Positions 16,066-62,300 of a DNA stretch of 64,000 nucleotides are shown here, in pieces. A program made the translations under genes and the position numbers. The stretch is from the NCBI GenBank assembly GCA_030432565.1, contig JAUIGV010000007.1, positions 1 through 64,000 of the forward strand. The letters run 5' to 3'. The notes under the pieces were generated by a model. It saw nothing but the letters and a program-made list of their open reading frames with translations, did not search any database and was not told the DNA's origin. Position 1 is the first letter of the stretch. Every line of letters starts with the position of its first letter. Source of the stretch: Verrucomicrobiia bacterium. Lineage in GTDB: Bacteria > Verrucomicrobiota > Verrucomicrobiia > Verrucomicrobiales > Akkermansiaceae.

Positions 16066-19000
16066 CTACCGTTGCGGAATCGACGCCTCAAGCACGGTCG
16101 CTCCGTGCTCTTCGCTCATCACGAGGACACTGAACTTGCGAACCTCGCCCAACCCGGTTGAACTCACGCTGGCATAATCAAACTTGCCCCGAAGATCAGT
16201 ATAGCCGTCTTTGAAGAATTTCACTCCATCAGCGGTGTCCGCGTAGACCTTCACGTAGACCTTAGGAAGAGGCTTACCGGTCTTCTCGTGGCGAACGGTG
16301 AGCAAGCCCATCGAGTCGCTGAGAATCGTTTTTAACTCATTTGCGTAGACCGCGGTCGAGGTCGTCTTGCCACCGCCAATCACCTCAACAATGACGTTGC
16401 TTGCCTGGTATTCGGCAGGGAGCGTGAAGATCTTCGATCCTTTTTGGCCCTGAAGCTTCATCTTCATCGATTTGTTTGGCTGAATGATCGCAAAGCGCGA
16501 AGTATCGCTCGAAACAAAGGGATTGGTACTAAACAAGAACTCCAGATCCATCTCGTAATAATTGACAGTCACCTCCGGAACATTCTGGAAATCGAGGGTG
16601 GCTTTGACACCCTCCACTTCGAGGGCCAGTGAGGGCTCGCGTGCGGCGGCCAACTGTTGTTCCTGTTCGCGATTCCCGTCTTCAATCACCTCCGGGCCGG
16701 CTCCCTCCACCTCCTTAATTTGGGCTGTCAAATCAGCGAAACGATTGCGCCAACGATCAACCGGATATTTCTCGTACTTCGCAGCCAAACGGCGGGCCTT
16801 GGGCAGATCGGCTTCGTAGAATGCAGCGTAAGCCTGGAAGTAATCATACTGCATTTTCGTCTTCAGTTTCGCTGGATTAACCTGCTTCAAATGAGCCAGG
16901 GCCTCGGCCACCCGGTCCTGAAGGAACAGGTAGTAAGTCGTAGCCAGGTGATCGAGATCATCGAGTTGCTTCTTCTGGCTGAGGACCCGGAGGAATTGCG
17001 CATACTGCTCCCGGACCACGGGGTTAAGAATCCGATTTTCGCCACCGAGAGCATGGGCCCGGTTGTTGATGAGCGGCTTGTATTCCAAATGCTCAAAACG
17101 GCGACGATTGATGGGATCAACCGTGATCAAATCACACGAAAGCGCCACCCCGCATTGATCAAGGAAACGCTCCTGCATCAGAAGCAACTGGGCGATCCCC
17201 TCCTTGTGATTGTGCGCAACAGAATACTCCTGAATGGCCGAGTGGTAGAGGCCGCGCAGATTCAAGATCTCCAGAGCCTTGAGGAAGAATTCGCCGTCTT
17301 CACGACAACGCCATGCCATCTTGGTGAGATCAATTGCATGCAGGTTTTGAGTCTCAAGAAACTTGAGAACATCGGCTTCTTCACCCCACTGGCTGATCCA
17401 GGCCCAAGATGTCTGGTCGACAGTCGTGGGCTTGTCCACGACATTGAAAGTGAGCCCATCGGCATGAGCAATCACTTCCCCGGACTTCGACAAATGAGCC
17501 GGATAAACCGGGAACTGTCCGGACGCCGGGAAGTAGAAGGCGATCTCAAGGCGGTGGGTCGCATAAGGTTCAAGCTGCACCGGCTTGGATTCGGTGGTTC
17601 GCAGTCCCCGGACCGCAATTGCCCCCTTTGGGATCTGTGAAAGAATATCGAGCCGCTGGCGCGCGCTGGTCGGATTGGTGACGACTACCTGGGATCCGTA
17701 AACCACCCCACGGACAAACTCCCCAGTGACGAATTTATCGACCTTTTGTCCGTCTTCCATGCGGTAACGATCATTGAGCTGGAAGTAACTCTGGCTCACC
17801 AAAAGCGGCGGGCGATTCTCGGCCATGCCGGCCTCCTTGACCTCGCGATGGAAAAACAAGGCGTTCCCTCCAGCGGTAAAATCAAGAGCACCTTCTTTGA
17901 TTTCGTCCTTATGCTTTGGAGCCTCAAAGGGAAGGTCGAGGAAAGCCAGGGCGAACATCATTTCCGCAAAGCTTCCGGTCACTTCACCCAAATGTCGTGA
18001 ACCGAAACCAGGACCACCCCCGTGTTTCGCAAGATCCAGCCAGAAGCGATTCTCAGCGACGAGTTGGTAAACCTGTTCGTTTTGACGGAGATGGAAGTAA
18101 TTATTCTCGGCCCACTCCTTGGTGGGTTCAAGGGCACGAAAGAGCTGGTCGACCTCTTTCAATTTTTTCGACAACTCAACGCCAAACGGATCAATTCCGG
18201 CTCCGGGCTTTCGACTGAGAGCCCGACTCTTGCTCTTGACTTCTTTTAAGGCGGATACCTGCTTCTCAAGCTGTTCGAGCTCCATCTTCATTTCGGCTTC
18301 CGGGGCTTCATTTGCCGGCGCCGCAGGAGCATTATCACCCAGAGAATAGAAACTATTTGACCGAAGCCCTTTCCTGTTCTGAAGGGCGGTTGTCAACTTG
18401 ACCCCGGCATAGGTGTTGCCAAAGGCGCCACCTGCCAAGGCTGCTCCGAACCACTGCTTGGTCAGATCAAGATTTGGAGGACGAAGTGCCAGCCTGTTTT
18501 CGAGATCCAAACCAAGTGCCGCCATCCGCTTCCCATCGGATTGCGCGAGGAGAATTCGCTCCACGACATTGAGCCGGGCATATTCGAAAAACTGAAAATA
18601 CTTGTTCAGGGGATTCCCGAGAAGAAAGTCGTCCATGAAGGTCAGGTCCTTCTTGCTGGCCAGATGTGGAAGAACCACCTCTTTGAAAAAGACCGGATCT
18701 TTCCGCGAAACAAAAAAGCTCAATTCATGACAGGCATACTTCGAGTATTTGGATCGCTTCTCTTCCCTGGTCAACGCGTCCCATTCCGTAACAAAGGAAA
18801 ACTCCCTCAATGTCTCATCATTCTTGAGGGTCAAAAAGTAGCGGTAGACCGCGCCCAGATGATCATAGACTTCAAAGTCCGAATTCAAAAGGTCAGGAAT
18901 TCTCAATGAGTCTCCTTTCTTCAAAAGGGTGACCTGCTCCTGTTCGGTAAAGTGACGCTTGGGATCGAGCGCGTTACTCAGGAGCCGTAGATCACGGATC

Positions 19001-22000
19001 CTGGTTTTCGCATCTGCCAGCGAAACACTGCGGTATGTGGAGCCATCCGGATCCACCAAAAGAACGTGAACATGCTGACGGTCCCCAAAGGCATCGATCT
19101 TAATACTGATTCGACCATTCTTGTCGGGAACCAAATTGGGAATGACAACGGGATCTCTCCCCAGAAATTCGTATGATGACGAACCGATGGACCTCGCCAC
19201 ACTTTCTTTTTTCTTGGCCCGGGAATTCCGGGAAGCGGCCGGCGCGGTAGCCGGAACCGGCCGGCGATCAAAGCGATCTCCTGCCTCCAACATTTCTTTT
19301 CCGGACTCGGTATCGCGAACAGCCCATGGGTTAAGGAGAATTTCAGGCCGCTCAAGCATGTTTCCAACAAATTTTCGGGCATAACGACGCTCTAAGATAT
19401 ACCGCAATTCATCACCCAAACTACGTCCACTGATATAAAGGCTCGGAAGATAGCGGGCGAAGCCCGTGCGAAGCCCGGCACGCTGGGAAGCTCCAAGAGC
19501 AGCAAACGGATCGTTCCCCGGAAGGAATCTTGTGCCAATTACATGCACACGGGTCAGGGGATCCAACCCCGTCACATCAATCTCCAGAGTCTTGTCATTC
19601 GCCTCCACCGATTTCAAATGCGAAGCCTGTCTTGTCGGCAGCTCCAGCATGCGTGCCGGGTTAAAAAGGTAGCCTTCGGAGATCTGACCATCACCAACCA
19701 ATACCTTCATTGTTTGAGAAGAGGCTTTCAGAATCAGGCGGTAGTCGCCTGCCGGGAGAGGCGCCACCAGATAACCATCGACCAGCTTGAGCCGGGCAAA
19801 TTCGTCGGCAACAAATCCCCCTGACCGGTAGGAATAGAAAGCCACTTCGCGGCGATTCAGGGAGCCCACAAATGGCACTTTGAGTTCTTGTTTATCGGAC
19901 AGGGTGACGAGATCCACTTGGTCACGACGGTCGTTCTCCAAAGACCAAGCCCGGGACTGACCACTCGCAGCCTCTACCGTTACGCTTTCAATCCCGGTGA
20001 GAGGTCCAAGATCGACACTTCCCCTTTCGGTGGTCTTCAGAGTCGCCTTTCGCTGATTTTTAAAATGGCGGTGATTTATCGTCACATTGAGATTTTGTCC
20101 GTCGAGGGGCTCGGCATTTCGGCCAAAAAACTCAACGCGATACCTGCCGTCGATTTTGCTCAAGTAGAGATCTCCGACGACATCACCTTTGAGAACTTCG
20201 TTCACCTTAAAAGACCGTGAATCCGTTAGTTCCACAAGTCTGCCTCCTTCACTGGCAATCTTCATTTTCACCCGGAGAGTCGCTACGAGATTGGTGAGGC
20301 GATCGGGCACTCTGAATTCGTGGACAAACTCGCGATCGCTCAAGAGCTTGATATCTTCGACGCTCATACTTGCGGGAAGTCCGTCCAGATCGGTTGAACT
20401 GAACTCCAGAGAAGCACTCTCGATCTCTGAGAGCGATATCGTTTGCCCGGCAACCTCAAGAGTCGGACGAAGAATCAAACGCCCTCTTCCGCCAGTGCGG
20501 AGGGACTCTTGATCGAGGTGCATTCCGGCCGTAATTTGATAAGCCTCTCCAGGTTGGACCAGCCTGGCCATCGTCGCGTAACCGGCTGAGTCTTGAATCA
20601 CCACAGATCGAGTCCCGGGATTACCGGAAAAAGGAATGACCAGGCGACCGGTCCCGTCAGTTTCATATCGGGTCTTCCCAAGCCAAAGCGCCGCTCCTTT
20701 CAGGGCTTGGTTGGCCTCGTCAAGAATCGTAACCAGCTCTCCCTGCGGGATGGTGCGATGAATCAGCCCAAGGGCTCCTTTGCGGATCACAGCCCGGCTG
20801 CTTTTACCGCCTCCGATAAATTCAACCACCCACAGACCTCGGCGATTGGGAATTGATGCCAGCTTAAATTCCCTTTCCGTCTTAAGTTGCGGTGCCACAT
20901 CGAACTCATGAACCTCGCGAAAGTTTGCCACCAAGCCATCGAGGTCAATGTCGGTACTAACTTCATTCCCAAGACTCCGGTAATAATTCAGGGTGTTGAT
21001 CTCAAAAACCTTCACAATGAGATTCGGCACATTTTTGAGATGCATCTTCAAGCTCACCGCATCGCCAATGGCATGGGTCTCCTGATTGGTGGGATCAAAC
21101 TCAATGTCCACGCGGTCTTTCAGAGCCTGGAATTCAGACGGGGTGAGAAGGGCGGCCCAGTCTGATGGCTTTCCAACTCCCTTGGTGATCTTGGCCTCGG
21201 CAAAGACACGGCGAAGCCAGCCCTCGCCCAGATAAGGCGCGAACTTTGCGGTGTCCGGATCATCCTCCAGAAACTTTAAAAGGTAAGCCCTCACCAAGTC
21301 CTCGTCGCTTCCTTGCACCGAAGGAAGAGTAGTCACTTTCCGGTAATCCTGTCCGAGATCTGCGGGATGACGCCAGAGAGCCGGCTCCTCGTCACGCCAC
21401 TTGGGATTCAAATAGCTGACATTCCGGGGAAGAGCGAGATACTGCAAAAACCGTTTCTCATTCTCTTTCCCTTGGGCCCGGTCATGCATGAGCCGTTGAT
21501 AAAGAAGGTGGGCCTTTAAGGAATTGAAGGCAGGAGGCAAGGTCACCACAAATTTTTCTGCACGAGTCAGATAAGCTTCGCGAACCTCCGCTGAAGCAGC
21601 CATCGACTCATCGGCATTTGGCAGAAGCCGGGTCAGGTAGGTCTCCACAAAAGCAGCCGAATTGATCACATCATTTTTCAGTGCAAGAAGCTCTTCAAGT
21701 TGAGCCTTCGTCAACAAACGATGAATCCCAAACTCCCCAAACCCCTTGCTTTCCTTGCTTTTGAGATCGGTGTGAACCAGTGAAACCAACCCCGGCAAAT
21801 CCGGAGTTGAAGCCCGGGCAAGAAGATCCCGCACTTCTGAAGGCGTCAATTTGGGATTCCCTTCCAGAAATTTGTAAAATGCCGACGGCTGAAGATTCTG
21901 AAGCGAGCTCGACCCTCTCAAGGCGTCATCCAGAAACGCCTTCCACGAAACCAAATTTTGATCCAAAACGGCAGGATACTTGGCCTCCCGGGCCTTCCCT

Positions 22001-22389
22001 TCCTGCTGGTGATTCAGGGTCAAACCCATTTCCCGGCGGAGGTAGGCCAGGGTCGCTTTCGGGTCATCGGAATACCGGATCAGGGCTTCACGATGCTCGA
22101 TCTGCTGGCGCCGGCCGGAATTACGAAAGCGATTTTTCCATTCCTCGAGAATCCGATTGAGCTCCTTGAGATTCCTCTCATTCTGAAAATGCAGGGCGTG
22201 ATAGTAATAGTATTCCTCGGTTCCGGGAATCAGAAGCTGCAGCGCCTTCTCCCGGTCGGCAGTGAGAGCAAAATCTTCAACAAATCCAACCTCCTGCTGC
22301 GCCACGACGCTGAAACTGGCCAAAATCGAAACGCCAAGCGCAACAATCCAGCGACAGCATGGTTGTGATAAATCAATGGTCTTCTTCAT
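16066..22389 (-). CDS. Very large exported protein with macroglobulin-like beta domains and an internal duplication
   Basis: I start at the ATG at 22387-22389, which gives a proper signal peptide (hydrophobic WIVALGVSILASFSVVA then QQ) and 2,107 residues. Long beta-rich stretches resemble MG-type domains of alpha-2-macroglobulin-like proteins (for example HVHVLLVDPDGSTYRSVSL). There is no thioester CGEQ. A module near residues 435-535 (NVPNLIVKVFEI ... VEFIGGGKSSRAVI) recurs near 1920-2010 (NVPEVTVNYYEM ... VEVIGGGKTTSTAVY), indicating internal duplication. A helical, TPR-like stretch precedes the second copy. The words NDPFAAL and GIDPFGVEL share a D-P-F motif with other exported proteins here. 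It lies 138 bases downstream of the PVC dehydrogenase gene. The function is unknown; protease trapping or envelope structure are possibilities. Confidence 0.7.
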   Translation of the reverse strand: MKKTIDLSQPCCRWIVALGVSILASFSVVAQQEVGFVEDFALTADREKALQLLIPGTEEYYYYHALHFQNERNLKELNRILEEWKNRFRNSGRRQQIEHREALIRYSDDPKATLAYLRREMGLTLNHQQEGKAREAKYPAVLDQNLVSWKAFLDDALRGSSSLQNLQPSAFYKFLEGNPKLTPSEVRDLLARASTPDLPGLVSLVHTDLKSKESKGFGEFGIHRLLTKAQLEELLALKNDVINSAAFVETYLTRLLPNADESMAASAEVREAYLTRAEKFVVTLPPAFNSLKAHLLYQRLMHDRAQGKENEKRFLQYLALPRNVSYLNPKWRDEEPALWRHPADLGQDYRKVTTLPSVQGSDEDLVRAYLLKFLEDDPDTAKFAPYLGEGWLRRVFAEAKITKGVGKPSDWAALLTPSEFQALKDRVDIEFDPTNQETHAIGDAVSLKMHLKNVPNLIVKVFEINTLNYYRSLGNEVSTDIDLDGLVANFREVHEFDVAPQLKTEREFKLASIPNRRGLWVVEFIGGGKSSRAVIRKGALGLIHRTIPQGELVTILDEANQALKGAALWLGKTRYETDGTGRLVIPFSGNPGTRSVVIQDSAGYATMARLVQPGEAYQITAGMHLDQESLRTGGRGRLILRPTLEVAGQTISLSEIESASLEFSSTDLDGLPASMSVEDIKLLSDREFVHEFRVPDRLTNLVATLRVKMKIASEGGRLVELTDSRSFKVNEVLKGDVVGDLYLSKIDGRYRVEFFGRNAEPLDGQNLNVTINHRHFKNQRKATLKTTERGSVDLGPLTGIESVTVEAASGQSRAWSLENDRRDQVDLVTLSDKQELKVPFVGSLNRREVAFYSYRSGGFVADEFARLKLVDGYLVAPLPAGDYRLILKASSQTMKVLVGDGQISEGYLFNPARMLELPTRQASHLKSVEANDKTLEIDVTGLDPLTRVHVIGTRFLPGNDPFAALGASQRAGLRTGFARYLPSLYISGRSLGDELRYILERRYARKFVGNMLERPEILLNPWAVRDTESGKEMLEAGDRFDRRPVPATAPAASRNSRAKKKESVARSIGSSSYEFLGRDPVVIPNLVPDKNGRISIKIDAFGDRQHVHVLLVDPDGSTYRSVSLADAKTRIRDLRLLSNALDPKRHFTEQEQVTLLKKGDSLRIPDLLNSDFEVYDHLGAVYRYFLTLKNDETLREFSFVTEWDALTREEKRSKYSKYACHELSFFVSRKDPVFFKEVVLPHLASKKDLTFMDDFLLGNPLNKYFQFFEYARLNVVERILLAQSDGKRMAALGLDLENRLALRPPNLDLTKQWFGAALAGGAFGNTYAGVKLTTALQNRKGLRSNSFYSLGDNAPAAPANEAPEAEMKMELEQLEKQVSALKEVKSKSRALSRKPGAGIDPFGVELSKKLKEVDQLFRALEPTKEWAENNYFHLRQNEQVYQLVAENRFWLDLAKHGGGPGFGSRHLGEVTGSFAEMMFALAFLDLPFEAPKHKDEIKEGALDFTAGGNALFFHREVKEAGMAENRPPLLVSQSYFQLNDRYRMEDGQKVDKFVTGEFVRGVVYGSQVVVTNPTSARQRLDILSQIPKGAIAVRGLRTTESKPVQLEPYATHRLEIAFYFPASGQFPVYPAHLSKSGEVIAHADGLTFNVVDKPTTVDQTSWAWISQWGEEADVLKFLETQNLHAIDLTKMAWRCREDGEFFLKALEILNLRGLYHSAIQEYSVAHNHKEGIAQLLLMQERFLDQCGVALSCDLITVDPINRRRFEHLEYKPLINNRAHALGGENRILNPVVREQYAQFLRVLSQKKQLDDLDHLATTYYLFLQDRVAEALAHLKQVNPAKLKTKMQYDYFQAYAAFYEADLPKARRLAAKYEKYPVDRWRNRFADLTAQIKEVEGAGPEVIEDGNREQEQQLAAAREPSLALEVEGVKATLDFQNVPEVTVNYYEMDLEFLFSTNPFVSSDTSRFAIIQPNKSMKMKLQGQKGSKIFTLPAEYQASNVIVEVIGGGKTTSTAVYANELKTILSDSMGLLTVRHEKTGKPLPKVYVKVYADTADGVKFFKDGYTDLRGKFDYASVSSTGLGEVRKFSVLVMSEEHGATVLEASIPQR

Positions 22390-22527
22390 AAGTGGTATCT
22401 CTGGCAAGGCTGTCCAGCCGGATACCGGAATCGGCAACAGGCTGGAAAGCAGTTTTCCTATTGATAAGGAAACGCCAGACGACAACTTCTTGGAAGAAAA
22501 TCCGCCTTTTTTTGAATCAGGAGAAGA

Positions 22528-49895: not shown

Positions 49896-52181
49896 TCACT
49901 TTGCTTTCCCCGTCAGGTAAAGATTCCGTTTGGACGATTGCAGGACCAGCGGGTAGATGCAGTTCAGCAGATCATCCTCGCCCATGTAGGGAGCTCCCAT
50001 ATGCGGAGTGGTGAAATGCAATCCATAGCCCGGCTCCCATGCGAGGGAAAACCACCAGCGATAGTTCTCGATCACCTCCTGATAAAATTCAGGTGCGGCC
50101 AAACTGAGTCCCATCAATCCCCAGGCTCCACCGGGCTCTCCGTAAGCGTGGCTGTTGCGGATCCATGGATGGCGCTCCCGCATGATTTTGGCCAGCGCTG
50201 GCTTCACGCGGGGCTTCTCACTACGAAGATGAGCGGCAATCAAATAGAGACCACTTCGCGACCAAAACTCCCCAAGATCCCGATAAGACCCATTGTAACC
50301 CATCGCTCCATGCCCTCCTTTCTCAGGATCCGACCAGGAGTGCATCATGTAGGGATCAAGCAGCTCCCAAATTTGAGATTCAACACCACAGTCTTTCGTC
50401 AATGCTTCACCCACGAGAAGATGCAGGGCCGGCGCGACGAGCGACTTATTGTCATACGGAAGTCCCGATGGCCCGTGACCAAGAGCAGGCATCCCCCATT
50501 TACAAATATGCTGTCCGGCCACGGCCCAATCCCGCGCTTCCCGGATCGGCTTCAGGACGCGTTGATCACCGGTGTGAAGATGCCACTCCCCAAAAAGTGT
50601 CATCATATAACCCGCCGACCAAAAGCCGAGATTCCCATGCTTTTCAGGTTCGGGAAATTGCGCCAAAGCCCAATCGATCGCTTTTTTGACACGGCGCCGA
50701 TGCTTGGGCTCACCCGTCGCCAACATCGCAAGCGAAGCAAACATGGTCCGCTTGATATCTCCGGACCATGATCCATCTTCGCGTTGATTATTCTCAAGCC
50801 ATTCAATCATATCTTCGAGCAAAGCCGCCGCCTCGGGATCGGTGGCAGGATTCATCGTCGTGAACGCCTTGCTTCGACCAAAGACATGGTCCAGAAATTC
50901 GATCTTCCCCTCTCGGAGAACAGTCAGGGAAACTTTGCCGCTTCCACTTTTTAAAGCCTCTTCACTCGCCGTGCCAAGAACCGCTTCATGACTGTTTGCC
51001 AACCACTCCCAACCGGGATCGAGGTTATTGATCGGGAGAGGACGCCCTTCGACAGCCACGATGGCATCACCCACTTTGAGTCCAGCCTTTGACGCCGGAG
51101 AACCTTTCCGAACATCCATGACCGTGAGGACAGTCTGCTCATGCTCGGTCAGGGCATCAAACCCAAGAAGGCCCGCGCCCAATTTGTCGGGCCCCTGACC
51201 TCCATTGGAGCGGCCAAAGAGCTTGCTGCTTGGCTCCTTGTTGATTCTACAAAAAGAAGGCTGCCCGATCACAACCGGCTCGCCGGCCCCTCCTTTGATC
51301 CGAACGCCAAACCGCTTCCCGACTAAAGCCGCCATGAGGGGCTCGGGGATTTCGAGCCAAATCCTCTCGCGCGCGGGAGAAGCTCCGGTCTCCTTTTCGG
51401 CAAGTTGAATTCCTAGCGGCGTGATCTCACCGCAGGTCCCAAATCCTCCGCCGCTCCAATCACTCTCAATGACAAAACGAAAGGCCGTCACGCCAAGCGG
51501 CTTCTCAAATTTCACCTCCAGGGCCTTTCGCTCATTCGCGACCGAAGCCTGCTCACTCGTCCCCTCGTGGACCAGCTCCCAGTCTCCACCCCCATTTTGA
51601 ACCTCTATGCGATACGATTTCGCGACCCCATTGGTGAAACCTCCCTGACGCGGAAGATATCGAACCCCCTCGAGCGATTGGACTTCTGAAAAACGCAAGC
51701 CGAGCCAGTGGGGAGCAGGAGTCTTTTCTCCACTATACCTCGAGTGCCACGAAGTTTCAGGATCGCCATCGAAAGCAAGCAGAGCTGCCGCCCCCGGCTG
51801 TTCGGATGAAGAAATGACCGACCAGGGGTCCTGGGGAGCATTTCCGGAAACAGCGGCATTTGAACTTGCAAAGATTTTCCCGCTGGCCGGATCGAAAGCC
51901 TCCAGCGTGACCTTCCCTTCCCCGTTCCCGATGGTCCCGTGCAACCCAAGTGAAACAATTCCGCGCCAACCTTCGGCAATCTGCTGTTCCTTGACACCAA
52001 GCGCCGGCACCTCCAGCGGAATCATCGTTTCCTCTCCTTCCATCAAGAGAGCCCCCTGCTCATTGCCGGGCAAAGACCAGGGTTGCTTCGCTACCAGCGG
52101 AGCCACCGGAAGAACGGTTCCGGAAACCTCCAACGATAAAACCAGGGCGAAAACAACGAGGGGCATGAGATGGTATTTCAT
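49896..52181 (-). CDS. Exported discoidin-PDZ-alpha/alpha toroid protein (DUF6288-like)
   Basis: From the ATG at 52179-52181 it has 761 residues and a signal peptide. A discoidin (F5/8 type C) domain spans about 125-270 (LLAFDGDPETSWHSRYSG, SLEGVRYLPRQGGFTNG). A PDZ domain follows near 350-450 (VRKGSPASKAGLKVGDAIVA), then an alpha/alpha toroid resembling prenyltransferase/squalene-cyclase repeats (WLENNQREDGSWSGD, HGAMGYNGSYRDLGEFWSR). This combination is known from uncharacterised PVC proteins. Binding of surface glycans through the discoidin domain is likely; no catalytic residues are recognised. A longer frame to 52313 adds 44 residues before the signal peptide and is rejected. Confidence 0.75.
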   Translation of the reverse strand: MKYHLMPLVVFALVLSLEVSGTVLPVAPLVAKQPWSLPGNEQGALLMEGEETMIPLEVPALGVKEQQIAEGWRGIVSLGLHGTIGNGEGKVTLEAFDPASGKIFASSNAAVSGNAPQDPWSVISSSEQPGAAALLAFDGDPETSWHSRYSGEKTPAPHWLGLRFSEVQSLEGVRYLPRQGGFTNGVAKSYRIEVQNGGGDWELVHEGTSEQASVANERKALEVKFEKPLGVTAFRFVIESDWSGGGFGTCGEITPLGIQLAEKETGASPARERIWLEIPEPLMAALVGKRFGVRIKGGAGEPVVIGQPSFCRINKEPSSKLFGRSNGGQGPDKLGAGLLGFDALTEHEQTVLTVMDVRKGSPASKAGLKVGDAIVAVEGRPLPINNLDPGWEWLANSHEAVLGTASEEALKSGSGKVSLTVLREGKIEFLDHVFGRSKAFTTMNPATDPEAAALLEDMIEWLENNQREDGSWSGDIKRTMFASLAMLATGEPKHRRRVKKAIDWALAQFPEPEKHGNLGFWSAGYMMTLFGEWHLHTGDQRVLKPIREARDWAVAGQHICKWGMPALGHGPSGLPYDNKSLVAPALHLLVGEALTKDCGVESQIWELLDPYMMHSWSDPEKGGHGAMGYNGSYRDLGEFWSRSGLYLIAAHLRSEKPRVKPALAKIMRERHPWIRNSHAYGEPGGAWGLMGLSLAAPEFYQEVIENYRWWFSLAWEPGYGLHFTTPHMGAPYMGEDDLLNCIYPLVLQSSKRNLYLTGKAK

Positions 52182-52407
52182 GAAAAAAAGACTTAATGGC
52201 CGGAGGCAGACAATTGTCTGAAACAAGTTATTTTCAAGGAAACAGATGGCGGACCGACCAACGGCTCGGTCCCACCAGTTGCTTTTCCTGTTCACCCCAC
52301 TGCGATTGCGCAAGATCCCACTGCCTGAGGGCTCAAATCAGATCCCCATCCCGCGATCAGAGACACCTGCACTTGCGGGATGGCCCTCGCGGGATTACAG
52401 ACGACCT

Positions 52408-54809: not shown

Positions 54810-55559
54810 ATGAATCCTAAAATGTTGGCACTGGCGTTTTCGTCATTGCTTCTCGGGACCCCGGCAACGCGGTCACAAACCGATCCTTTTGCTCAGGAGG
54901 CTCCCGAAACGCCTCCACGCATGGTCCGGGTGCAAGCCGAGTTTATCGAAATGCCCCATGCCACCTACACTCGCTTGATGGCCACGCCCCGGACCTCTTC
55001 CAATGACACCGCGCTCCGTGCCGAATGCGCCAAACTGATTAAGGCGGGCGAAGCACAGATCATCGAATCTCTGAGCGTCAATACCCTCCCCGGCCAGAGC
55101 TCCACCGCGGAGAACATTCACGAATTGATCTATCCCACGGAATACGAGCCACCCGGGCCACCTATCAATATTCCAAACGACGCCGAACGGCCGGCCAAAG
55201 TCCACGTCGGAGGGCCACCACGACCTCCTGTCGCTTTCGATACCAAGAACGTAGGATCAAACTTCGAAGTGGAAGCCCAAATTGACGCCTTTTATCCCAT
55301 CGTGGAACTCCGCTTCACCCCACACATCGTTGCCCACGCAGCCACAGATATCTGGAGCGTTTGGAAAAAGAACGGCGTTACCGTGGAAACCTCCATGCCG
55401 CGTTTTTACATTCTCAGCGTCAAAACCGGCGTCACGGTAGTTTCCGGACAACCTCACATGGTCGCCGGACTCTCACCTAAAAGCGAAGATGGCTGGATGA
55501 CAAGCTCGCGCAAAGTCATGACCTTCATTCGCGCCGACATCATCACCTTCGGCAAATAA
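54810..55559 (+). CDS. Exported secretin-core-like protein, copy 1 of 3
   Basis: A 249-residue protein with a signal peptide ending near TRSQ, then TDPFAQEAPE. The body follows the beta-sheet core of verrucomicrobial secretin domains: VRVQAEFIEMPHATYTRLM, ELIYPTEYEPPG, FDTKNVGSNFEVEAQID (compare 'vrdvGv.LeV.P'), ELRFTPHIV and VKTGVTVVSGQPHMVAGL. The VPxLGDIPxLGxLF lip motif of true secretins and the N-domains are missing, so it cannot be a complete channel. Two paralogues follow immediately. The function is unknown; a soluble or envelope partner built from a secretin fold is inferred. Confidence 0.75.
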   Translation: MNPKMLALAFSSLLLGTPATRSQTDPFAQEAPETPPRMVRVQAEFIEMPHATYTRLMATPRTSSNDTALRAECAKLIKAGEAQIIESLSVNTLPGQSSTAENIHELIYPTEYEPPGPPINIPNDAERPAKVHVGGPPRPPVAFDTKNVGSNFEVEAQIDAFYPIVELRFTPHIVAHAATDIWSVWKKNGVTVETSMPRFYILSVKTGVTVVSGQPHMVAGLSPKSEDGWMTSSRKVMTFIRADIITFGK

Positions 55560-55597
55560 ATCTCCCCCAGAAACAAAACACCTAAAACCCAAATCCT

Positions 55598-56350
55598 ATG
55601 AAATCAACCATCGTCACTCTTGCTGTCTTCGCCAGCATTCTCTTCACCCTCTTCACTCACTCCCAAACGGCCACCGAAGAATTCGATCCGCTCGGAGAAA
55701 TCAACGACCTTCCCAAAATGATCCGGGTGCAGGCCGAGTTCATCGAGATGCCGCATGAAACCTACACCGGGCTCATGTCGAAACCCCGCACCAGCGGGAA
55801 CGACTCCGACCTGAGGGCCGAGTGCGCCAAGCTCGTGAAAGCGGGCGATGCCGGTATCCTCGAGACGATGTGCGTCACCGCCCTGCCAGGACAATCGGCC
55901 ACCACGGAATCGATTTCCGAATTCATCTACCCCACCGAATACGAGCCAGGCGAACTCCCCAACGAAATCAACGGCGAAGCTGTCAATGGTGACCATCCCA
56001 TTGGATCTCCTCCCACCCCCAGCGCGTTCGACACAAAAAACACTGGCTCCACCTTCGAGGTCGAAGCCCAGATCGATGCCAATGAAAGCATTGTTGAACT
56101 CCGCTTCACCCCGACTCTGGTTTACCTGACCGACATCGTAAACTGGGGAGCCGAGAAGGCGGTGGGCGCGGCCGGGCCTGTCGAAATGCCCACCTTTTAT
56201 GTTCTTTCGGTCAAGACCGGAACCACTTTGGTTACCGGACAACCATCCATGGTCGCCGCCCTCTCACCCAAAGACGAAAAAGGCAACACCGATCCTTCCC
56301 GGAAGGTCATGGTCTTCATTCGCGCCGACATCCTGACGGTCGGTAAATAG
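55598..56350 (+). CDS. Exported secretin-core-like protein, copy 2 of 3
   Basis: A 250-residue paralogue of copy 1, 38 bases downstream. It keeps the signal peptide, the linker FDPLGEIND in place of DPFA, IRVQAEFIEMPHETYTGLM, EFIYPTEYEPGE, FDTKNTGSTFEVEAQID, ELRFTPTLV and VKTGTTLVTGQPSMVAALSP. It is closest to copy 1 in the middle and to copy 3 at the end (KDEKGNTDPSRKVMVFIRAD). Conservation of structure with changed surface residues suggests the copies are retained for different partners or assemble together. Confidence 0.75.
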   Translation: MKSTIVTLAVFASILFTLFTHSQTATEEFDPLGEINDLPKMIRVQAEFIEMPHETYTGLMSKPRTSGNDSDLRAECAKLVKAGDAGILETMCVTALPGQSATTESISEFIYPTEYEPGELPNEINGEAVNGDHPIGSPPTPSAFDTKNTGSTFEVEAQIDANESIVELRFTPTLVYLTDIVNWGAEKAVGAAGPVEMPTFYVLSVKTGTTLVTGQPSMVAALSPKDEKGNTDPSRKVMVFIRADILTVGK

Positions 56351-56373
56351 ATCGCTTTCACAACAGTCACCTC

Positions 56374-57135
56374 ATGACACTGAAAGCCTTCGCCAAGGCG
56401 CTCGTTCTTGGGCTCTTGATGACTTGCGGCATTCGCTCGCAGATCGACCCCTTCGCCGAAAATCCCGGAGCAAAAAAAACCACCCAGCAAATTAGGTTGC
56501 AGGTTGAGTTCATCGAAATGCCGCACGGCACCTTCACCGAACTCATGAGTGCGCCCCGTTCCTCGGCAAACGACACCGATCTTCGGGCCCGATGCGCGGA
56601 ACTCATCAAGTCCGATGAAGCAAGGATCATCGAGTCCCTCTGCGGCAACTCCCCACCGGGGCTGCATAGTTCGATCGAATCGATCTCCGAATTCATTTAC
56701 CCCACTTCCTTGGACCCTCCGGAACTCCCCAACAAAACCGCTCCGGACACCCCACCACTGCCCAAGCCGGTATGGCCACCGGCCCTTACTCCGACACCGG
56801 CCGCATTCGAAACCCGCATCCTGGGATCCACCCTGGAATGGGAAGCACAAATCATGGACCACCTCCAGCTTCCCGTGGTTGACCTCCGGATCAATCCCCG
56901 AATCGAATACCATGTCGGGAAACACCTCTGGCACACCTCGGGTCGCGATGACGTCCACCTCGAATTCTCAACCCCACGATTTTACACTCTGACCACCTCT
57001 ACCGGCACTTCGGTTGTCGCCGGCCAGGCACACATGATCGCCGCCCTATCGCCACAAGACGAAAAAGGCAACACCGACCTCTCGCGCAAGATCATGCTCT
57101 TCGTCCGCGCCGACATCCTGACCACAAAACCATAG
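56374..57135 (+). CDS. Exported secretin-core-like protein, copy 3 of 3
   Basis: The most divergent of the three paralogues, 253 residues, 23 bases after copy 2. It has IDPFAENPGAKK after the signal peptide, IRLQVEFIEMPHGTFTELM, EFIYPTSLDPPELP, FETRILGSTLEWEAQIMD and TSTGTSVVAGQAHMIAALSP. The NVG motif is replaced by ILG, and the strand following it is longer. It lies 13 bases before the VIT/SLBB fusion gene, so all four are probably one operon. Confidence 0.75.
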   Translation: MTLKAFAKALVLGLLMTCGIRSQIDPFAENPGAKKTTQQIRLQVEFIEMPHGTFTELMSAPRSSANDTDLRARCAELIKSDEARIIESLCGNSPPGLHSSIESISEFIYPTSLDPPELPNKTAPDTPPLPKPVWPPALTPTPAAFETRILGSTLEWEAQIMDHLQLPVVDLRINPRIEYHVGKHLWHTSGRDDVHLEFSTPRFYTLTTSTGTSVVAGQAHMIAALSPQDEKGNTDLSRKIMLFVRADILTTKP

Positions 57136-57148
57136 TCCGCCAATCGCC

Positions 57149-60100
57149 ATGATCCTCCCGCCAATGCGCCCTCTCATAAGTTTCTTCGTCATCCTTTTTG
57201 CCAATCTTTGCGCTTCCGAACGCTCCGCCCCGGAACTCACCGTGCAAGGACCGCGGGGCGAACGAGCCCCTCTCTCGATCGCCTCCTTTGAAACCAACAC
57301 CGTTTTCTTCGAAGACCTCGCCGAAACAACGATCACGGTCACCTTTTTAAATCCATCCAAACGCGCGATTGAAGGAGAATTCGCAATGCCACTTCCACCC
57401 GGAGCCACGGTCTCGGGTTACGCTCTCGATGTGAATGGCAGGATGCGTGAAAGCTCGGTAGTCGAAAAAGAACGAGCGCGCTTTGCCTACGAATCAATCA
57501 AGCGTCAGATGATTGACCCCGGATTTATCGAACGCGAAGAAGGGAATCTCTACCGCACCAAAATCTTCCCCATCCCTGCAGAGGGAACCAAGGCCGTTCG
57601 ACTATCCTACTGCGAAATCATCAACCCGAAGGAAGGCCACTACGACTACCACCTTCCACTTCCGGAAGTCAGCACTTCCTCCTGCAAGCTCGTGTTTGAA
57701 CATCTTGAAGGGAAAGCGCTCACTTTCCGGAATCCGGATCAACTCGCGTTCAGGAATGAAAGCCCCGGCTTCTATCGGGCCGATGCCGACAAGCAACAAC
57801 TCCCTCCGGGGCTTGTTGTCCGCCTCCCCAGACCAGCGAGCCCCGGTCTCATCAAAGCGGGTAACTATTTCTACTTCCGGAAAGCTGCAGAGGAAATAGA
57901 ACCACCTCTTATCCCGAACGATGCCAGGGCCATTCAAATTGTCTGGGATTGCTCTGAATCCGGGCGCCTGCGGAACCATGCAAGAGAGTTCGCCTTTCTT
58001 GAAAACCTCTTCCAACAGCAACCAAACCTGCAGGTGAAACTCACTCTTCTCCACCTTGAAACCTCTCCCGGAGGAGACTTCGTCATCAAAAATGGCAACT
58101 GGGTAAAGCTGAAGGAAGTCCTCTCAAAGATCTTTTACGACGGAGCCAATGACCTCGCCGCCATCACCTGCCAAAACCTGCCCACTCTCGTCTTTAGTGA
58201 TGGTCATTCCCACTTTTCTTTCCTCCGAAAAAATTGGAGCTCTCCCGTGACTCTCATCGATAGCCTTGGCAAGGCCTCTTCCTACTGGCGGCAACAGGCA
58301 TGGTTAAGCGGTGGCACCACGATTGACCTTGGCAGTCAACAAGATCGCAAACCCCCGAAAAACCCAGTGCGCAATTTCTCGTTCCAGAGAGCCGAAGAAA
58401 AGATCCCTTCAAACATTGAAGGCCGCAGCATCAATGAACCCCGCATCATAAAACTGATCTCAACTCTATGGGCTCAGAAGAAGCTCAACGAACTCGAAGC
58501 CGAATTTACCCCGCCCCCCCAAAGAATCATCGCTCATTGCAAAAAATATCATCTCGTCAGCAACTTCACCTCGCTCATCGTTCTCGAGCGATTCTCGGAC
58601 TACGTCCGCTACCGCATCCCGCCGCCCGAACCCGACCTCCTGAAACGATACCAGAATGAGATTGCCCGAAATTCAGATCGAACCCGGATCAAGGATCGAA
58701 TCTCCGATATCTGGAAATGGCGCAAAGCGTGGCACGCGACCTATTTCCCATGGCAGGAACGGCTCCTCGTCCCCGCAGTCCGACGCATGACAATTTGGAA
58801 AAAGGCTCTGGAAAGAACATTTACACCCGACGAACTCAACCCGACTGTTAGAACAACCATCACCAATCTTGAAAAAGAAATCAGCACCCTCTTCAAAGCA
58901 CGCCGTGAGAAGCCATTCGCAACCGACGAGGAATATCGCAATTGGTTAAAGAAGCTCGGAGCCACTTCCAAAAGCATTCAAAAGATTCACTCCATCACCG
59001 CCGGAGTGATCACCCCGGAGAAGAAAATGGCAGTCGCGGTCAATGGCATGGTGGAAGATCCCGGCAAGATCGTCTCCGAGACTGACCTCACTCTCCTCGA
59101 AGCAATCAAAAAAGCAGGAGGAATCTCAAAATTCGGATCAGGCTCCCGGATCTCGATCTATCGAGGAGCAAAAAAAACCACTTATAATACCCTCAGCAAA
59201 AACTATCGGGACATCCCGCTGCAACCGGGCGACCTCATCGTGGTGGAACAAGAAGAACAGATTTGGGACGATTCGGTCGATCCCTTCTCATCAAGCACAG
59301 ATTTAACGAGACGCTCTACGAGTCATGCCGACGAACCGCCGATCGTAGAAAACACAAGCGGCGATTCGTTTGGCAGCGCGGGCGGCGAATCCGATCCCTT
59401 CGGCAGCGCCCCACCCAAAAAGAAGGGTGAAAAGATCACTTTCAGCAAAACTCCTCCCGCCCCTGGAATGGCTCTCAACCTGATCAAGAATTCCGTGGAA
59501 GGCGGAAAATCACCGGAAGCAGCCTACAAAGACCTCCGTCTCAAAGACCGTTACTCGGACGAATTCTATCTCAATCTCGCGGACATCTTTTTCCAAAAAA
59601 AGGAACCGGCACTGGCCAGGCGCGTGCTCTCAAACCTGATTGAGAATCCCACCCCCAGACCAGCCGCCTATCGCAAATGGGCCTATCTTCTTGCCAAACA
59701 TTCCGACTGGAATGGGGCCAGAAAGACCCTGGAAGCCATCGCAAGTCACTACCCGGACGATCAGACGATCTCCCTCGATCTCGCCTGGATCAATGAGCGG
59801 CTCAAAGCAAAGCCCGTTCGCAAAAAACATCTCACGGAAGCGATTAATTCATTCGATCCAAACCAACAGGACACCCAAAATCTGGCCGAACTGGCAGTCG
59901 TGGAATTACGTAAATTGACGGAGCAACCCGCCCTCCCGCTCGACCTCCGCATCATCATTTCCTCCGCTTCCGGACAGGACCTAAACCTGCGCATCGAAGA
60001 ACCCAGCGGCACCGTCTCTCATTTCCCGAATTGGCCAAGAGCCAGCGAGATCGGAGCCCGCTCCTATGAATCAGTCGGCGTAGCCGAATATGCCCTGCGC

Positions 60101-60280
60101 CAAGCGGTCCCCGGATCCTACAAGCTCACCTCCCGCAGCCAGGCTCCGCAAATCCTTCGCGTTCAGATCTATCGAAACTGGCGACGCCCCAACGAATCCC
60201 TCGAGACCGAAAAGATCATCCTCCTCCCCGGTTCCAGGTTGAATCAAGAAATTCTCACCTACGATTTTCAGCTCAAATAG
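57149..60280 (+). CDS. VIT / vWA-like / SLBB / TPR / DUF2135-like fusion protein
   Basis: A 1,043-residue exported protein (start at 57149, or at the ATG at 57164 directly before the signal sequence). A VIT domain (about 30-165) is followed by a degenerate vWA region that keeps DCSES (from Asp267) but lacks a clear TDG word. A helical stretch follows, then an SLBB beta-grasp domain near 627-695 (VAVNGMVEDPGKIV, YRDIPLQPGDLIVVEQ) as in Wza-type exporters. A low-complexity linker carries DPFSSS and DPFGSA. TPR-like helices and a C-terminal beta domain resembling DUF2135/YfaP (SGQDLNLRIEEPSGTVSHFP) complete the chain. No PEP-CTERM tail is present. It follows the three secretin-core paralogues and precedes an ECF sigma gene. 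The function is unknown. Confidence 0.78.
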   Translation: MILPPMRPLISFFVILFANLCASERSAPELTVQGPRGERAPLSIASFETNTVFFEDLAETTITVTFLNPSKRAIEGEFAMPLPPGATVSGYALDVNGRMRESSVVEKERARFAYESIKRQMIDPGFIEREEGNLYRTKIFPIPAEGTKAVRLSYCEIINPKEGHYDYHLPLPEVSTSSCKLVFEHLEGKALTFRNPDQLAFRNESPGFYRADADKQQLPPGLVVRLPRPASPGLIKAGNYFYFRKAAEEIEPPLIPNDARAIQIVWDCSESGRLRNHAREFAFLENLFQQQPNLQVKLTLLHLETSPGGDFVIKNGNWVKLKEVLSKIFYDGANDLAAITCQNLPTLVFSDGHSHFSFLRKNWSSPVTLIDSLGKASSYWRQQAWLSGGTTIDLGSQQDRKPPKNPVRNFSFQRAEEKIPSNIEGRSINEPRIIKLISTLWAQKKLNELEAEFTPPPQRIIAHCKKYHLVSNFTSLIVLERFSDYVRYRIPPPEPDLLKRYQNEIARNSDRTRIKDRISDIWKWRKAWHATYFPWQERLLVPAVRRMTIWKKALERTFTPDELNPTVRTTITNLEKEISTLFKARREKPFATDEEYRNWLKKLGATSKSIQKIHSITAGVITPEKKMAVAVNGMVEDPGKIVSETDLTLLEAIKKAGGISKFGSGSRISIYRGAKKTTYNTLSKNYRDIPLQPGDLIVVEQEEQIWDDSVDPFSSSTDLTRRSTSHADEPPIVENTSGDSFGSAGGESDPFGSAPPKKKGEKITFSKTPPAPGMALNLIKNSVEGGKSPEAAYKDLRLKDRYSDEFYLNLADIFFQKKEPALARRVLSNLIENPTPRPAAYRKWAYLLAKHSDWNGARKTLEAIASHYPDDQTISLDLAWINERLKAKPVRKKHLTEAINSFDPNQQDTQNLAELAVVELRKLTEQPALPLDLRIIISSASGQDLNLRIEEPSGTVSHFPNWPRASEIGARSYESVGVAEYALRQAVPGSYKLTSRSQAPQILRVQIYRNWRRPNESLETEKIILLPGSRLNQEILTYDFQLK

Positions 60281-60345
60281 GCTCCGGATCCGGAAAAATA
60301 TGGTCACACTTGCCGGCAAAAAGGACATACCCTCCCCAACCGGCC

Positions 60346-60885
60346 ATGTCTTCATCGCTTCCACCTGAATTCGAGACCATCGTCTCCGAAAATCACGCCA
60401 GCTTGCGCTTCTTCATCCGCTCGCTCGGCGTCACTCCGGGTTGGGTCGATGACTTCGCACAGGAATCATTTATTCTGCTCCTCAGGAAATGGGATGAACT
60501 TGAGCGCCACGATGAGATCGATTCATGGCTCAGGGCGACCGCAAAAAACCTTGTTCGGAACGAACTCAGGAAAACTTCCCGCCGCCCCCACCTCTTAAAC
60601 AAATATCTCACCACACTGGTCATGGAGCGGGACTCCGGTACTCCTGCCCCCGCCGAGTATGCGATCAGCATGGAAAACCAATCCGCCCTGCGGCACTGCC
60701 TCCAAACACTCACTACCAAGACCCGCGGAATGATCGAGCAACGCTACTTCGATGACAAAAATTCCAGCGAAATTGCGGCTGATCTTAAAATGAAGTCGAG
60801 CGCCGTTCGACGCGCACTCCTTCGTGCACGTGAAGCTCTCGCCACTTGCATTTCCCGTGAACAAAACAACCCGAGCAAGGCATGA
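60346..60885 (+). CDS. ECF sigma factor, Rhodopirellula/Verrucomicrobium family
   Basis: A 179-residue sigma-70 family factor from the ATG at 60346. Region 2 is visible as WVDDFAQESFILLLRKWDEL and IDSWLRATAKNLVRNELRK; region 4 as EIAADLKMKSSAVRRALLRA. This size and sequence type are typical of the expanded ECF group of planctomycetes and verrucomicrobia. Its stop overlaps the ATG of the FecR-domain gene by four bases, so sigma and regulator are co-translated. It probably controls a surface or polysaccharide-use regulon. Confidence 0.93.
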   Translation: MSSSLPPEFETIVSENHASLRFFIRSLGVTPGWVDDFAQESFILLLRKWDELERHDEIDSWLRATAKNLVRNELRKTSRRPHLLNKYLTTLVMERDSGTPAPAEYAISMENQSALRHCLQTLTTKTRGMIEQRYFDDKNSSEIAADLKMKSSAVRRALLRAREALATCISREQNNPSKA

Positions 60886-62300
60886 ACGACTCAGCTTTCG
60901 ATCATCTTATTTCGGCACTTTTTGACGAGGAAGCCACTCCGGAACAAGAGGCGCAGATCACCGAAAGTCTTAGCCATGATCCAGATTTCCGGGCGAGGTG
61001 CCTCCTCCATCTTGAGATGGATGCTCAACTGGCTAGTCTCCCTTCCCCCGAAGGTCGCGACCTGTTCATTGCCGATACGGTCGAACAAGCGGCAACCTTG
61101 AGCAACGAGCACAATAATCATTTTCTCAACCTCATCCGAAGAAAGGAACAAAACCGTCAGTTTCGCAGGCGAGCCATACTTGCAGCAGTCGGTATCGCAG
61201 CAGTCATCATTCTCGCGGTATTCCTGCAGCCACAGCTGGAGTCACCGCGCCAACCAGCTAAGCAGCCCGTCCTTGCCTCCATCACCCTATTCGAAAATGG
61301 CTCCAATCCGTCTTCCGACGCTCAAATCTCCGCGCCTGAAGTCATCAACTTGACCTCAGGGCGGGCCAAGATCCAATTCTCTTCAGGGTGTATCATCGCA
61401 CTGGAAGCTCCGGCTACCTTCTCGATCCTGGATGCCTTAACTGTCGAACTCAACAAGGGACGTCTCAATGGCTGGTGCCCGCCTTCCGCGCACGGTTTTC
61501 GCGTCATCACTCCGGAAGCTTCCCTCATCGACCTCGGCACCTCCTTCGGAGTAACTTTAAACGAAAATCACGAAGCCGAATTTGTAGTCTTTGATGGAAT
61601 GGTCGAGATCGAGAGAGGTAAACAAAAAACGATTCTCGAAAATGGTCAAAGCCTTTTTTTCAAGGAGGATCAGTCACTCATCAAAACCCCTCTCCAAGGG
61701 ACTCCCTACAAGCAGACCTGGCTCCTTGCGGAAGGGATTCTCTCCACCAGCGGAGCCGTCGCACCAGTCGACCCCGACACACCGGAAGGCATCGCCGGAC
61801 AACGGGACGACTTTCATGTTCTCGTCAGCCCGGAGAAGCGTCACGTTTCGCTCAACCGCCCCCTGCAAGCGGATCTGATCACCCCCGGCACCTTTGTTGC
61901 AGATCATTGGAATGCCAAAAAAAGTGTTACCCTTTCTTCCTCTGCTTCCACCGGAAGCCTGTCATCCTACCTTCTCCACGCCCGCGTCGAACGCCCCATC
62001 ACCAGCAAGACCGATCACGTGCATTATCAAGGATCCGTCACTTTTGCCGAACCCGTTATCGCCGTCATCGCCTCTCAAAACTTCATGAAGAAGTGTGACG
62101 ATCTTTTCGCGACCGGCCCCTGGAAACAAATCGAACTTCCGATCAATAACCGCGGTCTGGAAGGAAATCTCGAAGCCCCCGCTGACAGAGTCACTCTTTC
62201 ACCGGACCGACGCACCATCACCATCGACATCCACACCGGATACGGGATTGATGAACTCCGCGTCCTCACTCGCAGCACTTCCATTCTCGCTACTAACTAA
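60882..62300 (+). CDS. FecR-domain transmembrane regulator (anti-sigma partner)
   Basis: A 472-residue single-pass membrane protein. The cytosolic N-terminus (LISALFDEEATPEQEAQI, then SLSHDPDFRARCLLHLEMD) is the usual sigma-binding part in this group. The helix RRAILAAVGIAAVIILAVFL (about 98-117) crosses the membrane, and a FecR domain follows (VINLTSGRAKIQFSSG, ASLIDLGTSFGVTL, FDGMVEIERGK). The C-terminal 150 residues form an exported beta-rich domain that may sense a ligand. It is coupled to the ECF sigma gene by ATGA overlap and lies 12 bases before the sulfatase gene. Confidence 0.9.
   Translation: MNDSAFDHLISALFDEEATPEQEAQITESLSHDPDFRARCLLHLEMDAQLASLPSPEGRDLFIADTVEQAATLSNEHNNHFLNLIRRKEQNRQFRRRAILAAVGIAAVIILAVFLQPQLESPRQPAKQPVLASITLFENGSNPSSDAQISAPEVINLTSGRAKIQFSSGCIIALEAPATFSILDALTVELNKGRLNGWCPPSAHGFRVITPEASLIDLGTSFGVTLNENHEAEFVVFDGMVEIERGKQKTILENGQSLFFKEDQSLIKTPLQGTPYKQTWLLAEGILSTSGAVAPVDPDTPEGIAGQRDDFHVLVSPEKRHVSLNRPLQADLITPGTFVADHWNAKKSVTLSSSASTGSLSSYLLHARVERPITSKTDHVHYQGSVTFAEPVIAVIASQNFMKKCDDLFATGPWKQIELPINNRGLEGNLEAPADRVTLSPDRRTITIDIHTGYGIDELRVLTRSTSILATN

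Follow-up and report, generated by a model that had tools for sequence, protein, structure and literature searches.

One question raised by the window analysed here, the whole stretch of 64,000 nucleotides (nt) from contig JAUIGV010000007.1 of a Verrucomicrobiia bacterium, is how a single exported protein with an unusual set of domains fits into the cell envelope, and with which other gene products it works. The gene in question (57149-60280, forward strand) encodes 1043 amino acids (aa), with a second ATG at 57164 as a possible start, and its product begins with a hydrophobic segment followed by a VIT domain, a von Willebrand factor A (vWA) fold, a helical region, an SLBB domain, a TPR stack and a DUF2135-like C-terminal domain. 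We find that the constant genomic partner of this VIT-SLBB gene lies outside it and is a family of secretin-fold proteins, and that the four-gene module 54810-60280 is of greater interest than the VIT-SLBB gene alone. Our preferred explanation, to which we would assign a probability of about 0.4, is that these genes form an accessory outer-membrane module of the primary PilQ-type (Amuc_1098-type) secretin, in which three short secretin-fold proteins would be placed in, on or beside the barrel and the VIT-SLBB protein would be their periplasmic partner.

Mini-secretins upstream of the VIT-SLBB gene

Three genes lie in tandem upstream of the VIT-SLBB gene on the same forward strand, each encoding an exported protein of about 250 aa: mini-secretin 1 at 54810-55559 (249 aa), mini-secretin 2 at 55598-56350 (250 aa) and mini-secretin 3 at 56374-57135 (253 aa), the last ending 13 nt before the VIT gene. 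Their sole NCBIfam match is to a fragment of NF042912, the model of the Amuc_1098-type PilQ, the type IV pilus secretin, with E-values of 2.2e-14, 1.1e-22 and 8.1e-12 and scores of 52.5, 79.9 and 44.0 bits respectively, all below the family cut-off of 750 bits. A profile built from the minis, of which mini-secretin 1 is itself a row (matching it at E 9.7e-91), was aligned by hhalign to three full secretins with 99.9% probability, E 8.3e-32, over 172 columns. The predicted model of mini-secretin 2 (m570b1378da7f) finds chains of secretin entries as its first 36 PDB matches in Foldseek, the best being PulD at E 4.8e-6, with low TM-scores of 0.27-0.36, and VIA-align places 28 secretin entries at Z 7.9-13.6 (rmsd 3.6-6.8, 122-144 residues aligned), while the rest reach at most Z 4.8. 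The minis are homologous to the secretin domain and are predicted to adopt its fold.

What distinguishes these proteins is what they lack. Only a signal segment and a short linker precede the first secretin strand, with no N-domains, and by comparison with a full secretin everything before the secretin domain is gone, as are 70-90 residues after its first strand, a stretch in which we take the gate hairpins to lie. The loop KVPLLGDIPxxGxLF, present in 3/3 aligned full secretins, is gapped in the minis. They are, in short, secretin-fold proteins from which N-domains, gate region and KVPLLGDIP loop are all missing, and for this reason we call them mini-secretins; they resemble the Amuc_1098-type PilQ in aligning to its secretin domain and, as described below, in co-varying with its primary copy, but differ from it in their length and in having no N-terminal TPRs. 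A published study describes Amuc_1098, a protein with N-terminal TPRs and a C-terminal secretin domain, as more abundant than any other outer-membrane protein of Akkermansia (PMC4960237).

The association of the minis with the VIT-SLBB gene is a conserved one. A profile search of 288 genomes of the order recovered 20 SLBB-type genes matching across the SLBB columns (the window's own gene being listed in two pieces), and in 18 of the 20 a mini immediately precedes the gene on its own strand, with no more than 170 nt between the matches; of the other two, one (G127) starts at a contig edge and one (G203) is a partial match whose neighbourhood was left unchecked. Among fetched loci the mini is upstream in all 20 assessable members of a clade of 21, with a 4-bp gene overlap in six; L074 could not be assessed, and, four loci (L153-L156) having been fetched after the adjacency was visible, 18/20 is the less biased count. 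The identity of the window protein to its counterparts in these cases falls to 26%, across several families of the order, and the genes flanking the mini-VIT pair are not conserved. An hmmsearch at E<1e-3, with some flanks short, found a mini beside 0/9 same-order relatives lacking the SLBB (L075-L082, L088) and 0/19 relatives from Bacteroidota and Caldisericota. On the scale of the phylum (337 genomes), the VIT family at E<=1e-60 extends to 25 genomes outside the order with its N-terminal half only (model position <=584), and minis at E<=1e-40 occur in eight genomes, all within the order.

Co-variation with the primary PilQ-type secretin

All 19 SLBB-type genomes searched carry a full Amuc_1098-type secretin over the cut-off and 17 of them carry two, a primary and a second copy; a place of the organism among the Verrucomicrobia was deduced from such secretins. 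In a tree that included 18 primary secretins and five of the 12 second-type secretins fetched, the 34 VIT-side minis form one clade (support 100/99). Old paralogs evolving apart should show no greater likeness within than between lineages. We compared the 34 minis, drawn from 18 genomes, with 30 secretins; the minis of L070 and L156, and further second copies from other genomes, lie outside this set, as do, for the primary comparison and the within-family permutation, the minis of G012, where only a second-type secretin was recovered. Mini-primary identity is 0.507 within against 0.416 between lineages, the difference being positive in 10/10 lineages and attained in 0/5000 permutations of lineage, which do not model the tree. 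Counted by genome, the corresponding values are 0.488 against 0.400 (0/2000) for the primary secretin and 0.336 against 0.337 for the second, and when permutation is confined to the inside of families the primary signal is reached in 4/20000 cases and that of the second secretin in 5450/20000. The secretin of the own lineage is the best match for the minis in 8/10 lineages for the primary copy and in 2/9 for the second.

The co-varying residues are 99-102, 155-163, 169, 171 and 204-208 in the numbering of mini-secretin 2. Most of the excess of mini-primary identity is located in predicted strands, frequently at alternating positions (100/102, 156/158, 169/171, 204/206/208), a pattern whose chance level was not assessed. 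Of the window's own proteins, mini-secretin 1 (0.53 against 0.36, +0.17) and mini-secretin 2 (0.60 against 0.41, +0.19) carry the own-lineage excess, which is small (+0.02 to +0.05) in four stand-alone minis of the same genome. Two other sources of such likeness were considered. Gene conversion between minis and PilQ is argued against by the codons: agreement at equal amino acids is 726/1878 (0.387) for mini-primary, 404/1001 (0.404) for mini-second and 296/659 (0.449) for primary-second pairs, and mini-primary codon identity exceeds mini-second in only 4/11 genomes. Of the four core serines common to mini-secretin 2 and PilQ, three are encoded by codons of unrelated families, and at the DNA level the minis and their own PilQ share only short stretches of 72-80% identity (92, 107, 85 and 75 nt). 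Since codon identity is not raised, conversion does not explain the co-variation; a repeated origin of minis out of the local PilQ is rejected on the single clade that they form.

Because the strand residues of the minis follow the PilQ of their own lineage through the lineages, the most likely place of the three minis is within the PilQ barrel, on it or beside it. The VIT-SLBB protein, as their constant operon partner, would be located in the periplasm, and a complex of the two with PilQ is the simplest account of these two observations, namely the constant operon partnership and the tracking of PilQ residues. Within such a complex the TPR stack may serve as a pilotin-like or assembly scaffold and the SLBB may make up for the absent N-domains with a module that builds rings or binds ligands, the vWA domain presumably acting mostly without metal-dependent binding; the module could contribute to pili or to secretion. 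What the data show directly is the domain architecture, the conserved adjacency, the predicted secretin fold, the co-variation and the loss of the metal-site Thr; the outer-membrane location, the physical association and the functions proposed here are inferred. A particular form of this arrangement, which we regard as fairly unlikely, is a hetero-oligomeric secretin in which PilQ and the gateless minis together make up a mixed or stacked ring in the outer membrane and the VIT-vWA-SLBB-TPR protein stands in for the vault of N-domains; if it were true, ring width, gating or cargo could be tuned by subunit exchange.

Several observations weigh against the placement of the module at PilQ. Under plain permutation each of the two controls has a small excess as well, mini-second identity being 0.342 within against 0.326 between lineages (61/5000) and primary-second identity 0.516 against 0.490 (1/5000), so that part of the mini-primary signal may be general; and the window's own mini-secretin 3 has almost no own-lineage excess (0.37 against 0.36, +0.01). 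Pfam reports no family at E<=1, and hence no Secretin match, for any of the three minis, and the model of mini-secretin 2 was built from the three window paralogs alone (pLDDT 67). The model of the VIT-SLBB protein is poor overall, and because its mean pLDDT is only 56 its structure matches place folds, not details; its TPR matches are promiscuous, PilF and TadD turning up together with a large number of unrelated TPR proteins. In the order it is common for a mini to stand without a VIT gene next to it, and none of the four divergent SLBB-bearing relatives L084-L087 has a mini nearby (0/4 loci, hmmsearch E<1e-3), on which account a general rule that SLBB implies minis is rejected.

Three other explanations have to be set beside this one. 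The minis and the VIT-SLBB protein could form an outer-membrane pore or ring of their own, apart from PilQ, the shared residues then reflecting a common assembly factor or partner with which both have to be compatible. Such a ring would suit the conserved operon, in which secretin-fold subunits are joined by an SLBB/TPR partner, and the periplasmic rings of Wza-type exporters are likewise lined by SLBB domains; yet the second secretin, which also needs assembly, hardly co-varies with the minis, and the lack of a gate region and KVPLLGDIP loop makes a self-standing gated pore less likely, so that we consider this explanation somewhat unlikely. Alternatively, the minis could be secretin-derived periplasmic binding domains without barrels, which together with the VIT-vWA-SLBB-TPR protein would make an envelope complex that binds proteins or glycans from outside or protects against them. 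In other settings VIT-vWA proteins are found at the cell surface or in plasma, and stand-alone minis adjoin other exported proteins, with weak serpin similarity in 6/16 loci, and in the window's own genome a two-component pair; but the conserved and co-varying columns are barrel strands, which a free binding domain leaves unexplained, and the serpin match is under the cut-off in all six scanned proteins, with unrelated eRF1 chains interspersed when PDB profiles are searched. This possibility appears distinctly unlikely.

Finally, the neighbourhood might reflect inheritance by descent with no common function, an old tandem family having happened to remain a neighbour of the VIT gene within a single clade of a single order. 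That all cases fall within one order and one clade of the VIT tree speaks for this explanation, but the adjacency has been kept through deep divergence, over several families and with overlapping genes in six loci, in surroundings that are otherwise not conserved, and we hold it to be very unlikely.

The VIT-SLBB protein, its linker slot and its metal site

The initial annotation had read VIT, vWA, SLBB, TPR and DUF2135-like domains in one chain, and each of them is recovered, by differing means. The VIT domain (residues 46-154; 57284-57610) matches PF08487 at E 1.4e-22, with 80.4 bits against a cut-off of 26.5, and a search of the own genome finds it at the same place. The vWA fold (residues 258-394; 57920-58330) comes from the predicted model, which aligns with the VWA domain of CLCA1 (Z 12.7, rmsd 2.7 A, 128 residues aligned), Pfam VWA giving no match at E<=1. 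The SLBB domain (residues 629-699; 59033-59245) lies just over the cut-offs of two models, PF22461 over residues 629-699 (29.6 bits against 27) and PF10531 over residues 629-675 (27.3 against 27), and a six-frame search of the own genome recovers it with 34.9 bits. A TPR stack at about residues 767-930, delimited here as about 770-925 (59456-59923), is predicted from the model and its VIA-align matches to TPR proteins, with several Pfam TPR models at about 838-887 each under its own cut-off (TPR_14 23.3 against 23.5). The C-terminal beta domain (residues 925-1043; 59921-60277) is called DUF2135-like through hhalign to the C-terminus of Bacteroidota relatives, which Pfam DUF2135 does match, for example in locus L044 (E 1.1e-8); the window protein itself has no DUF2135 match at E<=1. 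For the whole chain the top Foldseek match is inter-alpha-inhibitor heavy chain 1 (ITIH1), at E 1.7e-11 with a TM-score of only 0.14/0.23.

The same domain order, which the initial annotation had proposed to look for in other genomes, exists elsewhere: full-length colinear relatives are found in other genomes of the order, in Bacteroidota and in one Caldisericaceae bin. Between the SLBB group and the Bacteroidota group hhalign establishes homology of the VIT (100%), vWA (99.9%), TPR (98.1%) and C-terminal (98.7%, E 2.8e-16) parts, whereas the SLBB-bearing linker and the Bacteroidota linker show no homology (0.1%). A Pfam scan of 32 family members found VIT in 32, DUF2135 in 14 and each of the two SLBB models in 11, the SLBB thus being confirmed by Pfam in part of the clade only; CarbopepD_reg_2 and TonB Plug occur in one, by reading the Flaviramulus protein of locus L040 (7911-11216). 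This protein carries a SusC-type CarbopepD_reg and TonB Plug without a barrel in the linker position of the window's SLBB, and by reading Chryseobacterium relatives (L041, L044) keep plug-like remnants there. Since the flanking parts are homologous, the linker is not, and one Bacteroidota relative has a TonB-receptor plug, the linker is a slot for different modules: SLBB, other sequence or a plug.

The fusion had been called unusual; it is better described as conserved, marking one clade within the window's order, with the SLBB occupying a slot whose content depends on the lineage. In a VIT-vWA-helix tree of 54 rows, a quick tree with SH-aLRT support alone from which L083, L089 and L090 had been dropped beforehand, the 21 SLBB proteins of the window's group make up one side of a branch with SH-aLRT 100, and the four divergent SLBB proteins are placed apart from them; a single SLBB origin for both groups is compatible with the tree (p-AU 0.634). 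Another SLBB-vWA fusion is present in the same family of genomes, a 1177-aa protein joining SLBB to a YfbK-type vWA protein (L089, 7841-11371).

The metal ion-dependent adhesion site (MIDAS: DxSxS, Thr, Asp) of the window protein is incomplete. The earlier description of a degenerate vWA with DxSxS but without the later residues was right about the motif (D267-x-S269-x-S271) and about the Thr, which is replaced by Asn334, and went too far for the remainder, D351-G352 being retained. Degeneracy is a trait of the SLBB-bearing groups: D267 is present in all 54 rows, but the metal-site Thr in 6/21 of the window's clade (lost in 15/21), in 0/4 of the divergent SLBB proteins and in 29/29 of the others (Fisher p 2.4e-8 for 6/21 against 29/29, relatedness uncorrected), with D351 in 18/21 of the clade and 33/33 of the rest.

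The comparison with known proteins gives only partial likenesses. With VIT-vWA proteins, such as the inter-alpha-inhibitor heavy chains and bacterial TIGR03788 and its kin, the window protein shares a VIT followed by a vWA fold; unlike them it adds SLBB, TPR and DUF2135-like domains, has in most of its clade lost the metal-site Thr, scores 64.2 bits against the cut-off of 551.65 for the sortase-target family TIGR03788, and has by reading no sortase or PEP-CTERM end. A second VIT protein of the window (5847-7763, forward strand, 638 aa) is a classical VIT-vWA protein with a weak PEP-CTERM match at its end. Polysaccharide export proteins of the Wza and PEP-CTERM type share one SLBB (TIGR03027 at 31.5 bits, under its cut-off of 180), but Wza-type exporters combine PF02563 with SLBB, while the window protein has a single SLBB and no Pfam Poly_export match at E<=1; the genome holds separate classical polysaccharide exporters. 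The suggestion that the protein ties surface adhesion to glycan or polymer binding finds no support, there being, besides the missing Poly_export match, no C-terminal sorting or anchor signal by reading. The TPR pilotins PilF (Z 12.2) and TadD (through an RcpA-TadD entry) have a TPR fold of the same size range as that predicted here, but the window TPR belongs to a 1043-aa chain, without a lipobox by reading, and its TPR matches are unspecific. PilY1 is not known to be a VIT-SLBB protein. One possible likeness to PilY1-type pilus proteins lies in a vWA domain tied to type IV pili (PMC9210963).

Neighbouring genes and the meaning of the module

Directly downstream of the VIT gene (60310-62300, forward strand) lie genes for an extracytoplasmic function (ECF) sigma factor and for a protein whose FecR match falls slightly short of the cut-off, followed by a gene that is sulfatase-like by reading; the sigma/FecR pair was rejected as part of the module, a sulfatase-type cluster gene directly following the VIT gene in the nearest relative, L058. 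No link to alpha-2-macroglobulin through DUF2135 appeared in the six large window open reading frames (ORFs) scanned. Elsewhere in the window are a 2139-aa ORF without Pfam match at E<=0.01 (16066-22485, reverse strand) and an 805-aa ORF with F5/8 type C, PDZ and DUF6288 domains (49896-52313, reverse strand). On contig C64 of the same genome (L135, 7948-17119) six consecutive ORFs of 460-536 aa share their strand with the second Amuc_1098-type secretin; a Pfam scan of one of them gave no match at E<=0.01.

The stand-alone minis have neighbours of their own. On contig C56 of the same genome (L127, 7970-11724) two of them directly precede a histidine kinase and a response regulator. In 6/16 fetched stand-alone loci the minis adjoin an exported family of about 360 aa with weak C-terminal serpin similarity (L141 7691-8767; L142 8726-9817; L143 13021-14427; L144 7530-8603 and 10885-11985; L148 9188-10276; L152 9709-10773). 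The Pfam serpin model gives E 0.0012 to 0.3, all under the cut-off, in the six scanned of these seven proteins, and a PDB profile search lists serpins at E 0.37-0.47 among unrelated eRF1 chains at E 0.35-0.69; a serpin-like partner is no more than a lead.

Judged by titles, the open-licence literature yielded no description of a mini-secretin/VIT-SLBB module, nor did we find in it a paper combining VIT with SLBB, DUF2135 with VIT, SLBB with von Willebrand or VIT with PEP-CTERM. How envelope proteins are re-tooled can be seen from the linker slot, which carries an SLBB in one lineage and in another a TonB plug. Secretin rings are taken to be homo-oligomers of full-length subunits, and an operon of reduced secretin domains that changes with PilQ and has a dedicated periplasmic partner would alter this picture. 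It would likewise give a role to a bacterial VIT protein family that we have not found described, and would explain how the metal site of its vWA domain could decay.

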